A stretch of DNA of 64,000 nt from positions 1 through 64,000 of the forward strand of contig NZ_AOIL01000013.1 of assembly GCF_000337595.1 (NCBI RefSeq). Direction: 5' to 3'. Positions within the stretch are counted from its first letter, which is position 1; each line of letters begins with the position of its first letter. The translations under genes and the position numbers were made by a program. The DNA is from Natrialba taiwanensis DSM 12281. Its GTDB lineage: Archaea > Halobacteriota > Halobacteria > Halobacteriales > Natrialbaceae. Under the pieces are notes generated by a model. The model was given only the letters and a program-made list of their open reading frames with translations, was not told the DNA's origin and did no database searches. Below are positions 27,396 through 32,605 of the stretch, piece by piece.

Positions 27396-27428
27396 GCCAC
27401 AGTGTGGCTCGAATCCGCAACGTTATAC
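27396..27428 (+). promoter_or_regulatory. Pantoate kinase promoter with hyphenated palindrome
   Basis: GCCACA-g-TGTGGC (27396-27408) is a 13-base inverted repeat lying about 15 bases before a TATA-like GTTATACTC (27422-27430). The ATG is at 27452, about 27 bases from the TATA centre, so the message is probably leaderless and the palindrome sits in the BRE/upstream position. Confidence 0.35.
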
Positions 27429-27451
27429 TCCCCGAGTCGCAAGGGTCGCCA

Positions 27452-28291
27452 ATGCGCGAGGAGGCGACGGCGTTCGTACCAGGGCACATAACGGGCTTTT
27501 TCAGCGCGCACCCGGCCGACGATCCGACGAAATCGGGATCGCGCGGTGCGGGATTGACGTTGACCGACGGGGTGACGGTGACGGTCGAACCGGTCTCCGA
27601 GGAGGCGTCGGAGTCGATCGTCATCCTCGACGGCGAAATGATCGATATCGAACCGGTCGAGACCGTTCTCGAGACGCTCGGCGTCGTCGCTCGCATCGAA
27701 GCCGAGTCCGACCTCCCGCTGGGTGCCGGCTTCGGCGTCTCGGGTGCGATGGCACTTGGCACCGCACTCGCAGCAAACCGGGTTTTCGAGTGCAAACTCT
27801 CGCGAAACGAACTCGTGGCGGTCGCCCACGGTGCGGAGATCCAGGCCGGCACCGGGTTGGGCGATGTCGTCGCACAGGCTCACGGCGGCATTCCGATCCG
27901 ACTCGAACCGGGGAGTCCGCAGGAGAACAAACTCGACGCTATCCCCACGCGAGCGCGCGTCGAATACGTGTCGTTCGGTGAACTCTCGACGGCGGACGTG
28001 CTTGCGGGCGAAACGGAGCAGCTGACGACCGCCGGCAAGGAGGCGCTTTCGCGGGTCGTCGAGGAACCGACTCTCCTCTCGTTTATGTACGCCTCGCGGC
28101 TGTTCGCCCGCGAAGCGGAGTTGCTGACCGACCAAGTCGCAAAGACGATCGGCGACGTGACCGACGAGAACGGCCAGGCGTCGATGGCGATGCTCGGCGA
28201 GACGGTCTTTGCGCTCGGGACGGGGCTCTCGGCGGCGGGGTACGAGCCGTCAGTTTGTGCGACCCATCCCGCGGGAGCGTTACTGAAGTAG
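27452..28291 (+). CDS. Pantoate kinase (archaeal CoA biosynthesis)
   Basis: This 279-residue GHMP-superfamily kinase phosphorylates pantoate to 4-phosphopantoate, the archaeal replacement of bacterial pantothenate kinase. Features are the start FVPGHITGFFSAHPADDP, the GHMP loop LPLGAGFGVSGAMALGTALA, HGAEIQAGTGLGDVVAQAHGG and a C-terminal LGETVFALG. Its partner, phosphopantothenate synthetase, is encoded 3.5 kb downstream on the same strand, with only the repeat membrane protein between. That pairing makes pantoate the likely substrate over other GHMP substrates. Confidence 0.92.
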   Translation: MREEATAFVPGHITGFFSAHPADDPTKSGSRGAGLTLTDGVTVTVEPVSEEASESIVILDGEMIDIEPVETVLETLGVVARIEAESDLPLGAGFGVSGAMALGTALAANRVFECKLSRNELVAVAHGAEIQAGTGLGDVVAQAHGGIPIRLEPGSPQENKLDAIPTRARVEYVSFGELSTADVLAGETEQLTTAGKEALSRVVEEPTLLSFMYASRLFAREAELLTDQVAKTIGDVTDENGQASMAMLGETVFALGTGLSAAGYEPSVCATHPAGALLK

Positions 28292-28809
28292 TGCGTCGCT
28301 ACCGGGGCGCGACGAGCCCTCGTCGCTGGCCGGTCACACGCAGTTCGAAGCCTGAAACCTCGCCCGCTCGTTGCCGGCCTCGACCGGCGATCGACCGCCC
28401 GTGGATCCGTTCTCGACGCTTTCGTAAGCGTGTCGACAGTCTCGCTGCCGCGCTCGCCACGAGTTCATCCTCGAAACAGGGCCGAATACTGCCGTCGACG
28501 CACGGCGAAGACGGGTCGTCGCATTGACAGTCGTTCCAGAAGAATGCAAGGTGTTAACACGATAGTGACGACGATCATAGTCACAAAGTTGGGGTGTTCG
28601 AGGACAAGCCGGAGTGGTAGTGTTTCAAGCGGCCCATTCGAATCACAAACGCGGCTAAAAACGCCGATAATCGGGGATCTGGTGTCTCGTTCTAAAAATC
28701 AAAGTTGAAACCGTTGTCGGCCAAACAGTGTTTGATATTATATGTCTGAAGTGTGTCTGATGGCCAGAGGTTTATTATGGTGGGTTTCCGTGTTCCGGTC
28801 ACATTTCGA
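28292..28809. other. Intergenic region upstream of repeat membrane protein, no gene seen
   Basis: This is 518 bases without a credible gene in any frame. The 3' part becomes AT-rich and has a TATA-like TGATATTATA at 28733-28742, predicting a start near 28765 and a leader of about 45 bases for the gene at 28810, longer than most here. Confidence 0.5.
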
Positions 28810-31746
28810 ATGTCTTCGATCAGTGACTTTCACCACAAACTGTATCGGTTGTACGAACGCTACGTCGGGGAGCCCGACTCGACGAAGGACGTGTACGGCT
28901 ACTGGGTATTCATCGTCGGCTACGTCGTCGCGATTGCGGGCGTCACGACGTTTATCGCCGGCTACGCGGCCGAGATCGATGCGTATGGGATTATCCGCGC
29001 CTCCGGGGTCATCGCCGCGACGGGGCTTGCCCTCTGTCTCTTCGGCATCGTCCTGATGCTTCCCGTTCGAAAACGGGGGATTCAGGCGAGCGGTGTCGGA
29101 CTGGTTATTGCGTTCATCGGCGTCGGATTCTTCGGGTGGGCGTATCCCTACAACTGGCGGAATCTCGGCACTGACTACAGCGTGCAGGTCATTCTGGTTT
29201 ACACGCTCGGTATCGGGATCATCGCGGGCGTCACCGCGCTCGTTCCGGTGCTGACCGGTCGCAAGGGGATGTTCGTCACAGAGGAAGGCGAAACGGAGGA
29301 ACCGCCGATACTCACCGGCGACGCGCTCGAAGGTGCACAGTTCGCGGTTTTCCGCGACGAAAACGGCGACTGGAAGTGGCACGTGCTCCACCTCGAAGCG
29401 CTGGCAGAGAGCAATGAGAGCGCCGTTACCCGACCAAAGGCGACGGAGGGAATCGAACGCGTTCAGTCTCAGATCAGTTCGGCCGGACTGATGGAACTGA
29501 CGACCTCCGCGTTCCGACTGTACGAGGACCGCGACGGCTCCTGGCAGTGGACGCTCGCTCGCGACGACGGCAGCGTCGTCGGCACCTGCGCCGGCGAGTT
29601 CAGCGAGCGCGACGGTGCCGAGGAGTCGGTGAGTTTCCTCAAGGATCGCGGTCCGGCAGCGGACGTGATCGAGATCGAGGGGGCGGCGTTTACCTACGCC
29701 GAAGAGCGCGATCAGTGGTACTGGCAACTGGTCGACGACGAGCGCGTGCCGCTTGCCGCCGGCGAGGACGGCTACGGCACCCAGGAGCGCGCCGAACAGG
29801 CCGCGCGGACGTTCGCCGAGCAGTTCGACCAGGCGCGACTACTCGATATCGAACACGTCGGCGCTGAACTCTACGAGCGAAACGGCGACTGGACGTGGCG
29901 GTTCGTCGACGACCAGGATACGGCGCTGGCCGCCTGCACCGACGAGTTCGATGCGCGGCGAGATGCGGAGGAAGCGGCCGATGCGGTGCTCTCGACGCTC
30001 GATTCGGCATCGGTAACGGTGGCCGGCGAGCCGACTTACGAACGCTACCAGACGGGCGAGGAGTGGCGCTGGCGGCTCGTCGACGAGGCCGAACACATCG
30101 TCGCACAGAGTCCGGCGGCCGCTAAGACGGAGGCGGACGCCGCACACGAGACCGATACGTTCGGCGAGCACGCCCGCGACGCCGACGTCGTCGAGATCGA
30201 CGACGCGGAGTACGAAATCTACCCTGCTCCCGACCGCGAGCTCACGTACGACGAGGACGACAGTCTGCCCGCGACGGCGAGCGAGGGGAGTACACTGGTG
30301 TCGACGGACGGCGGAACGACGACAGCCGACGGCGAGACCGACGCCGACGCGGACGCGACCGACGGTCCGGACTGGAACTGGCGGCTCGTCACCGAGGATC
30401 GCGACGTGATCGCCGCAAGCACCGAACGCCACCGCGACACCGAAACGGCGACCGAGGCGATCGAGCGCGTTCGCGATCAAGCGAGCGAAGCCGATCTCAT
30501 CGAGTTCGACGAGGCGGCGTTCCAGGTCTACGAAGCGGACTCCGGCGAGTGGCGCTGGCGGCTGATCGACGAGGACGGGAACGTGCTCGCCGACAGCGGC
30601 GCGGAACACACCTCACGCGGCGAGGCCGCCGAGGCGATGATGACGCTCAAAGAACAGGCTCCCGACGCCGAACTCTTAGAGATCGAAACTGCCGCGTTCG
30701 AACTCTTCGTCAACGAGGACGACGAGTGGGGCTGGCGGCTGATCGACGAGGCCGGCAAACTCGTCGCCGAGGACCCGGAGACCCACCCGACCCGTGCTGC
30801 CGCCCGAGAGGCGATGAACCGCCTGCTCGAACACCTCGATTCGGACGTGCGGACGATGGACGAGGCCATCTTCCAGACCTACGCATCCGAGGACTGGCAC
30901 TGGCGATTCGTGCTTCAGTCCGGCGAAACCGTCGCCGTCGCCGGCGACACCGCCGCGACGCGAGACGAACTCGTCGACACGCTTCCCGACGTTCGCGAGT
31001 CGGCGGCATCCGCACAGGCCTACACGATCGGCGACGTGACGGTCCAGCTCTACGAGAACGGCGACTGGAGCTTCCGGCTGCTCGATCGCGACCGCAACGA
31101 AATCGCCGACGCGACGGGCACCTACGCGAAGCGCGAGGCCGTGCTTGCGACCGTCGACACGCTCACGGCCAACGCCGCCGATGCGCCGATCTTTACGATC
31201 GAGGACGCGGCGATCCGACTCACCGACGAGGACGGCTGGTCCTGGGAGCTGGTCGACCGCGAGCGCACCGTCTTCGCGAGTTCAACAGATACCGCGTCGA
31301 GTCGGGACGCGCTTTACTCCCAGGTCGAGACGGTGCGCCAGCTCGCGCCGATGGCCGGCCGCGTCGACTTCGACGTCGCGTCGTTCGAACTCGTCGCGGA
31401 CGAGGACGACCGCTGGCAGTGGCGGCTGATCGACGAGGACGGGCGCACGGTTGCGACCGGCTCCGAAATGCACGAATCGAGCGAGTCGGCGCGCGAGGCG
31501 CTCGAGAACGTGCGCGAGCTGATCGAGGCGGCGAGCATCCTCGAAATCGACAGCGTTTCCTTCGAGTTGCACACGGCGGACGACGAAGACGGAGAAATGG
31601 ACGGCTGGGTCTGGCGGCTGGTCGACGAGTTCGGGTCGACGATGGCCGAGAGCACCCAGACCTACGAGTCTCGGACCGACGCTCGCGAGGCGATGAACGA
31701 CGTGAAAGCGGAGGCTCCGGAGGGCTGGATCACCTTCACGGAGTAG
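28810..31746 (+). CDS. Membrane protein with about 13 tandem DUF1508/YegP-like units
   Basis: This 978-residue protein starts MSSISDFHHKLYRLYERYVG. Four transmembrane helices fall between about residues 30 and 165. From residue 175 to the end there are about 13 divergent units of roughly 58 residues. Each has the pattern FxxYxDxxGxWxWRLxDExGxxxAxSxExxxxRxxAxEAxxxxxExAxxAxxxEI. The best match to classical DUF1508/YegP is the unit FQVYEADSGEWRWRLIDEDG. The sixth unit is split by an acidic Thr/Asp insertion. Single YegP-like proteins have one or two units; 13 on a membrane anchor is remarkable. It lies between the two archaeal CoA-synthesis genes. The role is unknown. Confidence 0.85.
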   Translation: MSSISDFHHKLYRLYERYVGEPDSTKDVYGYWVFIVGYVVAIAGVTTFIAGYAAEIDAYGIIRASGVIAATGLALCLFGIVLMLPVRKRGIQASGVGLVIAFIGVGFFGWAYPYNWRNLGTDYSVQVILVYTLGIGIIAGVTALVPVLTGRKGMFVTEEGETEEPPILTGDALEGAQFAVFRDENGDWKWHVLHLEALAESNESAVTRPKATEGIERVQSQISSAGLMELTTSAFRLYEDRDGSWQWTLARDDGSVVGTCAGEFSERDGAEESVSFLKDRGPAADVIEIEGAAFTYAEERDQWYWQLVDDERVPLAAGEDGYGTQERAEQAARTFAEQFDQARLLDIEHVGAELYERNGDWTWRFVDDQDTALAACTDEFDARRDAEEAADAVLSTLDSASVTVAGEPTYERYQTGEEWRWRLVDEAEHIVAQSPAAAKTEADAAHETDTFGEHARDADVVEIDDAEYEIYPAPDRELTYDEDDSLPATASEGSTLVSTDGGTTTADGETDADADATDGPDWNWRLVTEDRDVIAASTERHRDTETATEAIERVRDQASEADLIEFDEAAFQVYEADSGEWRWRLIDEDGNVLADSGAEHTSRGEAAEAMMTLKEQAPDAELLEIETAAFELFVNEDDEWGWRLIDEAGKLVAEDPETHPTRAAAREAMNRLLEHLDSDVRTMDEAIFQTYASEDWHWRFVLQSGETVAVAGDTAATRDELVDTLPDVRESAASAQAYTIGDVTVQLYENGDWSFRLLDRDRNEIADATGTYAKREAVLATVDTLTANAADAPIFTIEDAAIRLTDEDGWSWELVDRERTVFASSTDTASSRDALYSQVETVRQLAPMAGRVDFDVASFELVADEDDRWQWRLIDEDGRTVATGSEMHESSESAREALENVRELIEAASILEIDSVSFELHTADDEDGEMDGWVWRLVDEFGSTMAESTQTYESRTDAREAMNDVKAEAPEGWITFTE

Positions 31747-31828: not shown

Positions 31829-32605
31829 GTGAGCGATTACGATACCGTTTCGGCTGATGTCGAACACGAGGAGGAGATCCCGGCGGACCATCCCAGATAT
31901 CAGGATCTGCTCACTCGCCACCGGATCGAAACCGGCATCGAGAAGGGCATCACCCACCTCCAGGGGATGCACGCCGAGGGTCGGGGCAGCGCCTTCGATT
32001 ACCTGCTCGGCGAGGAGACGATTCCGAGCGCCGATGGGGCGGAGCGGGCGGCGGCCGCACACCTCCTGCTCGCCGACCAGCCCGTCCTCTCGATCAACGG
32101 GAACGTCGCCGCGCTCGTCCCCGGTGAGATGGTCGACCTCGCGTCGGCGGTCGACGCCGATCTCGAGGTGAACCTCTTCAATCGAACCCCAGAGCGAGTC
32201 AAGGCCATCGCCGAACACCTGCGCGAGCACGGGGCTGACGAGGTGAAAGGACTGACGGCGGACGCTCGCATCCCGAAGCTCGACCACCAGCGCGCGAAGG
32301 TGGACGCCGACGGTATCTACGCTGCTGACGTGGTTCTCGTTCCCCTCGAAGACGGCGACCGCGCGGAAGCCCTGCAGGAGATGGACAAAACCGAAATCGT
32401 GATCGACCTCAACCCCCTCTCGCGCTCGCCGCAGGTCGCGGCGGTGCCGATCGTCGACAACATCATCAGAGCCGTGCCGAACATGACCGAGCACGCGCGT
32501 GACCTGGCAGACGCTGACGAGGCCGAACTCCGGTCGATCGTCGACGAGTTCGACCGCGAACAGGCACTCGAGGAAGCCGAAGCGCGCATTCGAAACGGTC
32601 TCTGA
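31829..32605 (+). CDS. 4-phosphopantoate--beta-alanine ligase (phosphopantothenate synthetase)
   Basis: This 258-residue archaeal enzyme (COG1701) joins 4-phosphopantoate and beta-alanine to 4'-phosphopantothenate using ATP. Conserved segments are RHRIETGIEKGITHLQGMHA, LSINGNVAALVPGEMVDLA, LEVNLFNRTPERVKAIAEHL, KVDADGIYAADVVLVPLEDG and IDLNPLSRSPQ. It starts at GTG 31829. TTTTTATCG at 31800-31808 lies about 27 bases upstream, so the message is predicted leaderless. It acts directly after pantoate kinase in the pathway. Confidence 0.94.
   Translation: MSDYDTVSADVEHEEEIPADHPRYQDLLTRHRIETGIEKGITHLQGMHAEGRGSAFDYLLGEETIPSADGAERAAAAHLLLADQPVLSINGNVAALVPGEMVDLASAVDADLEVNLFNRTPERVKAIAEHLREHGADEVKGLTADARIPKLDHQRAKVDADGIYAADVVLVPLEDGDRAEALQEMDKTEIVIDLNPLSRSPQVAAVPIVDNIIRAVPNMTEHARDLADADEAELRSIVDEFDREQALEEAEARIRNGL

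Follow-up and report, generated by a model that had tools for sequence, protein, structure and literature searches.

The 64,000-nt window from Natrialba taiwanensis DSM 12281, that is, the whole stretch of DNA analysed, contains an open reading frame that starts with an ATG at 28810 and ends with a stop at 31746. The frame lies where an earlier note on this DNA had placed it, and it encodes a protein of 978 aa. An alternative in-frame GTG start lies upstream at 28753; the ATG was preferred because orthologue alignments begin there and a conserved TATA-like TTTATTAT lies upstream of it. In Pfam searches, the product matched PF23600 (DUF7139; E 5e-40, 137 bits, cut-off 30) and PF07411 (DUF1508; E 1.4e-65, 217 bits, cut-off 22). 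In NCBIfam, it matched NF041908 (HVO_2922) with E 8.2e-84 and 275.6 bits, a score that is the sum across many units and that passed the cut-off of 90 only by this summing. NF041908 is the HVO_2922 equivalog and describes a single small soluble protein, which the 978-aa array protein is not; automatic annotation may label this membrane protein as the 60-aa soluble one. The features of the locus are listed in Table 1.

Table 1. Features of the array gene, its product and its neighbours (positions are those of the window).
Feature	Residues (aa)	Positions	Strand	Basis
Pantoate kinase (pok, GHMP kinase), upstream neighbour		27404..28291	+	Pfam, NCBIfam; neighbour in 35/47 named loci
Conserved gene-specific promoter: GGCCAGA, TTTATTAT (28771-28778), AGTTATC-type block		28762..28795	+	28-orthologue alignment
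Whole CDS: DUF7139 anchor and 13 DUF1508 units	978 in all	28810..31746	+	ORF, Pfam, NCBIfam; orthologues share ATG
DUF7139 (PF23600) membrane domain, common to HVO_0739/CdpA	10-153	28837..29268	+	Pfam, DUF7139 tree
Four transmembrane helices (predicted)	25-53, 59-83, 88-111, 124-149	28882..29256	+	AlphaFold2 secondary structure
Unit 1	171-227	29320..29490	+	W-x-W/F pair, single-unit NF041908 match, AlphaFold2, unit profile
Unit 2	228-285	29491..29664	+	W-x-W/F pair, single-unit NF041908 match, unit profile
Unit 3	286-343	29665..29838	+	W-x-W/F pair, single-unit NF041908 match, unit profile
Unit 4	344-401	29839..30012	+	W-x-W/F pair, single-unit NF041908 match, unit profile
Unit 5	402-460	30013..30189	+	W-x-W/F pair, single-unit NF041908 match, unit profile
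Unit 6, split by insert	461-563	30190..30498	+	PF07411 match, AlphaFold2, unit profile
Acidic disordered insert in unit 6	476-517	30235..30360	+	pLDDT <50; even spacing in orthologues without insert
Unit 7, central, HVO_2922-like motif kept	564-622	30499..30675	+	Conservation 0.89, unit profile
Unit 8	623-678	30676..30843	+	Conservation 0.81
Unit 9	679-735	30844..31014	+	W-x-W/F pair, single-unit NF041908 match, unit profile
Unit 10	736-792	31015..31185	+	W-x-W/F pair, single-unit NF041908 match, unit profile
Unit 11	793-851	31186..31362	+	W-x-W/F pair, single-unit NF041908 match, unit profile
Unit 12	852-915	31363..31554	+	W-x-W/F pair, single-unit NF041908 match, unit profile
Unit 13	916-978	31555..31743	+	W-x-W/F pair, single-unit NF041908 match, unit profile
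Phosphopantothenate synthetase (pps, 4-phosphopantoate--beta-alanine ligase), downstream neighbour		31829..32605	+	Pfam, NCBIfam; 36/47 named loci

Thirteen W-x-W/F pairs were found in the protein, at aa 188, 245, 303, 361, 419, 522, 581, 640, 696, 753, 810, 869 and 933. Their spacing is 56-64 residues except for one interval of 103 between units 5 and 6, which results from a disordered acidic insert within unit 6. When each unit was searched alone, 12 matched NF041908, and unit 6 matched PF07411 with 32 bits. A DUF1508 unit profile, built only from other, unrelated DUF1508 proteins, gave at least 8 bits for all 13 units; none of 1000 shuffles scored above 5.7 bits. Searches with PF07411, NF041908 and this profile bear out the claim of the earlier note that the protein contains about 13 DUF1508/YegP-like repeats. 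Far more than three units, the minimum set there, score as DUF1508, and the repeats gave no match to a well-characterised domain. They run to the C-terminus as described, although their spacing is not as even as the proposed period of about 58 residues. The insert of unit 6 (~42 residues) differs in length between species and is missing from deeper relatives, in which exactly 13 evenly spaced matches were obtained. Conservation reaches its maximum at unit 7, followed by unit 8. The W-R-W-R-L...A-D-S-G surface of HVO_2922 is best kept by unit 7 and is lost from most units. A match to the FtsQ/DivIB C-terminal family (PF03799, 29 bits, above cut-off) was rejected; the units involved differ by orthologue, and it is missing in four distant orthologues.

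The structure prediction proposed in the earlier note was made with AlphaFold2 on 32 orthologues. The full model (mean pLDDT 80.6, pTM 0.55) has four membrane helices followed by YegP-type beta-beta-beta-alpha-beta units to the C-terminus, and together with the PF23600 match it upholds the earlier picture of a four-helix anchor followed by repeats. The loop that joins helix 2 to helix 3 and the stretch directly after helix 4 contain basic residues, from which the positive-inside rule predicts a cytoplasmic location for both termini and for the 13-unit array. The best solved matches in Foldseek include E. coli YegP, Shewanella SO3888 and Haloferax HVO_2922. In the YegP-like fold, as described, two beta-beta-beta-alpha-beta domains form an internal repeat. 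A model of the unit 7-8 pair, which asked whether neighbours pair in the YegP manner, was of low confidence (pLDDT 67). Because this value and the pTM of the full model leave the inter-unit geometry uncertain, the multivalent rod suggested in the earlier note is possible rather than established. The contractile-injection baseplate protein All3315 (7b5h), which came up in Foldseek and by weak profile similarity, was rejected as a relative (TM 0.05, sequence E 0.009 or worse). Profiles of units 7-8 gave E 0.009-0.07 with baseplate proteins of contractile injection systems (7b5h chain AD, 7aeb and 9wsz), a similarity that possibly reflects a distant YegP-like domain in those proteins, or chance.

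Array matches with E <1e-140 were obtained in 89 of 119 Natrialbaceae genomes, a count that includes a few genomes with the paralogue only, one large internal deletion and one frameshifted copy; the array is missing from the remaining 30. The orthologues of Natrialba aegyptia and N. asiatica are 98-99% identical. Orthologues were also found in Haloferax marinum, Halorubellus, Halomarina, Salinarchaeum and several MAGs, and in a second haloarchaeal family they were present in 7 of 57 genomes. The earlier note had called this the most unusual protein in the window; its architecture of DUF7139 and 13 units is widespread in haloarchaea. The number of units was 13 in every intact orthologue examined, including those with only ~40% identity; where 14 were counted in Natrialbaceae, the split unit 6 had been matched twice. 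In 81-100% of comparisons, the best match of a unit in another species was the unit of the same number. Since the units correspond by number across species, the array is old and its unit number fixed, and recent repeat expansion by unequal crossing-over was ruled out. The array gene is dispensable across species. One copy (L115) has a large internal deletion that leaves few units, and two others (L155 and G073:C51) have apparent frameshifts; such broken or shortened genes are consistent with ongoing loss. A second 13-unit DUF1508 paralogue (L108-L114, L116 and L117) occurs in several genera, with a shortened N-terminus of about two helices and no Pfam match to DUF7139.

Alignment of 28 orthologues placed the TATA-like block at -40 to -33 relative to the ATG; TTTATTAT lies 31-39 nt upstream of the ATG here, in keeping with a haloarchaeal transcript that has a short leader or none. 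The promoter consensus across genera consists of GGCCrGA, TTTATTAT and AGTTATC. The AGTTATC block is present in most orthologues, is degenerate in the Natrialba clade, and may be a candidate binding site for a dedicated regulator. In each of six genomes, the promoter pattern occurred exactly once, always at the array gene; this regulon search found no co-regulated partner genes.

The neighbouring genes encode pantoate kinase and phosphopantothenate synthetase, so the CoA-synthesis neighbours named in the earlier note were correctly recognised, and its proposed check of neighbourhood conservation placed pantoate kinase beside the array gene in 35 of 47 named loci. These flanks span Natrialbaceae, Halorubellus, Salinarchaeum and one MAG, as would be expected if the array were a tether or regulator of CoA synthesis that recruits both enzymes to the membrane. 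However, the array gene has its own conserved promoter, and a separate TATA-like TTTTTATC lies about 25 nt 5′ of the phosphopantothenate synthetase start. The two genes are not neighbours of the array in Haloferax marinum, in Halomarina or at the 13-unit paralogues. In genomes without the array, pok adjoins pps directly in 8 of 12 checked, indicating that the array gene lies within an older gene pair. Membership in a CoA operon is weakened by the separate promoters and by the presence/absence pattern of the array, and the functional link hinted at earlier is weakened by the gene's own promoter and the direct pok-pps adjacency. We consider a CoA tether very improbable; the best reading of the CoA link is a positional one, a shared location.

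DUF7139 was found in 118 of 119 Natrialbaceae genomes. DUF7139 is encoded three times in the N. taiwanensis genome, by paralogous genes for a CdpA orthologue (L008) with a Cys-rich DUF7140 tail, a short protein (L009) with an acidic tail, and the 13-unit array. Paralogues with an acidic low-complexity tail (L009, L084) occur alongside CdpA in Natrialba and some Haloferax; we know of no function for them. CdpA, which we take to be HVO_0739, reportedly organises and anchors the midcell ring. In Haloferax, the gene order is ftsZ1, nusG, AN1-rhomboid, pyrophosphatase, PadR, nreA, DUF7139; some 15 kb separate the DUF7139-DUF7140 gene from ftsZ1, it follows nreA by about five genes, and its product has 328 aa. 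Counting from rho2 (HVO_0727) and nreA (HVO_0734) identifies this gene as HVO_0739. HVO_0739 has been described as a predicted membrane protein with an mRNA of ~1,052 nt, a length that fits the 328-aa product and supports the identification. Repression of cdrS-ftsZ2 strongly lowered HVO_0739, together with FtsZ2 and SepF, and one review briefly describes CdpA as required for normal division. In the DUF7139 tree, L008 and the Haloferax copies were joined at 100/100. DUF7140, which is present in L008 and the Haloferax copies, had no Pfam match in the 978-aa array protein. Judged by the position of the array proteins outside the HVO_0739 clade, the array protein is a paralogue of CdpA and not CdpA itself.

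A division role of the array protein is possible by analogy with CdpA. As a division component proper, it would be an organiser like CdpA and would set the position or spacing of FtsZ1, FtsZ2 or SepF, with the 13 units as a membrane-to-ring ruler at midcell. The anchor domain shared with HVO_0739/CdpA, whose expression follows cdrS with ftsZ2 and sepF, and the constancy of the unit number among all intact orthologues are consistent with such a role. However, the array is missing from about a quarter of Natrialbaceae, although all of them must divide, and this patchy presence argues against an essential division role. The protein also lacks the DUF7140 tail, its gene lies outside any division gene cluster, and species-variable insert lengths disfavour a strict ruler. 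We regard this explanation as unlikely.

The earlier note held that DUF1508 proteins normally have one or two units, but arrays of 3, 5 and 13 on DUF7139 are common in haloarchaea: one protein has 3 units (L121), and in others 5 units are combined with a coiled coil (L118, L119 and L192-L194). This recurrent pairing of anchor and module argues for a functional link between DUF7139 and DUF1508. In another haloarchaeon, an Amphi-Trp domain (PF20068) is fused to DUF1508 units (L120:559-1893). All unit counts found so far on the DUF7139 anchor are odd and would leave one unit unpaired within the chain. This might fit units that serve for dimerisation, either with free proteins of the HVO_2922 type or with another array, so that the protein would polymerise or would hold soluble DUF1508 proteins at the membrane. 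In relatives of solved structure, the beta-beta-beta-alpha-beta assemblies have two domains or are dimeric, HVO_2922 is presumably a dimer, in agreement with the two chains in 6q2z, and unit 7 is the unit nearest to HVO_2922. However, the odd counts may be due to chance, and the HVO_2922 surface motif is lost in most units; pairing of this kind appears distinctly doubtful.

On balance, we favour the reading that the array protein, with its CdpA-type anchor, adds a third member to the DUF7139 family and serves as a membrane-tethered cytoplasmic scaffold whose 13 position-specialised YegP-fold units gather partners. The array itself probably has a scaffolding role. The four DUF7139 helices would fix the protein in the cytoplasmic membrane, and the 13 units would form a cytoplasmic tail. 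This tail would be a multivalent or length-defining scaffold beneath the membrane that collects partner proteins. The main binding site would most likely be unit 7 together with unit 8, because conservation is highest there and unit 7 keeps the ancestral HVO_2922-like motif. Points against this reading are the location of the array gene away from division genes, the lack of the DUF7140 tail of CdpA, the uncertain inter-unit geometry, and an odd number of units of a fold that in YegP forms a two-domain unit. It is also conceivable, though unlikely, that CdpA-type anchors carry interchangeable tails and that the 13-unit array is a fixed-length scaffold which organises an additional, dispensable layer, either of the division ring or of the membrane skeleton.

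To our knowledge, the widespread DUF1508/YegP module has no established role. Here, YegP modules are tied to a membrane anchor from the family of a haloarchaeal division protein, in a number that is constant over large evolutionary distances, and the 13-unit array is a concrete place to seek their binding partners. These findings suggest that one type of anchor carries several different inner tails in haloarchaea. Natrialba, Natrinema and Haloferax marinum are among the culturable haloarchaea in which the function of the array can be tested.

Among related systems, HVO_0739/CdpA of Haloferax volcanii resembles the array protein in its four-helix DUF7139 membrane domain. However, CdpA has about 330 aa, and its Cys-rich DUF7140 tail is preceded by a disordered linker, whereas the array protein has 13 DUF1508 units and no DUF7140; the ring contacts of CdpA therefore need not apply to the array. 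The 3- and 5-unit proteins (e.g. L121, L118 and L194), apparently uncharacterised as far as we know, combine the same anchor domain and modules as the 13-unit array, but their units are much nearer to HVO_2922, and in the 5-unit form a coiled coil precedes them. YegP of E. coli (PDB 2k8e) and SO3888 (2k49) share the beta-beta-beta-alpha-beta fold and the tandem arrangement. They are soluble bacterial proteins of two units, in contrast to the 13 membrane-anchored units here, and the placement of neighbouring units in our models superposes poorly on them (TM about 0.4). HVO_2922 (PDB 6q2z; NF041908; UPF0339) is matched by each array unit and has ~40% identity to unit 7 in an alignment spanning nearly all of its 60 aa; however, it is a single soluble unit without a membrane anchor, whereas the array protein is a 978-aa membrane protein of 13 units.
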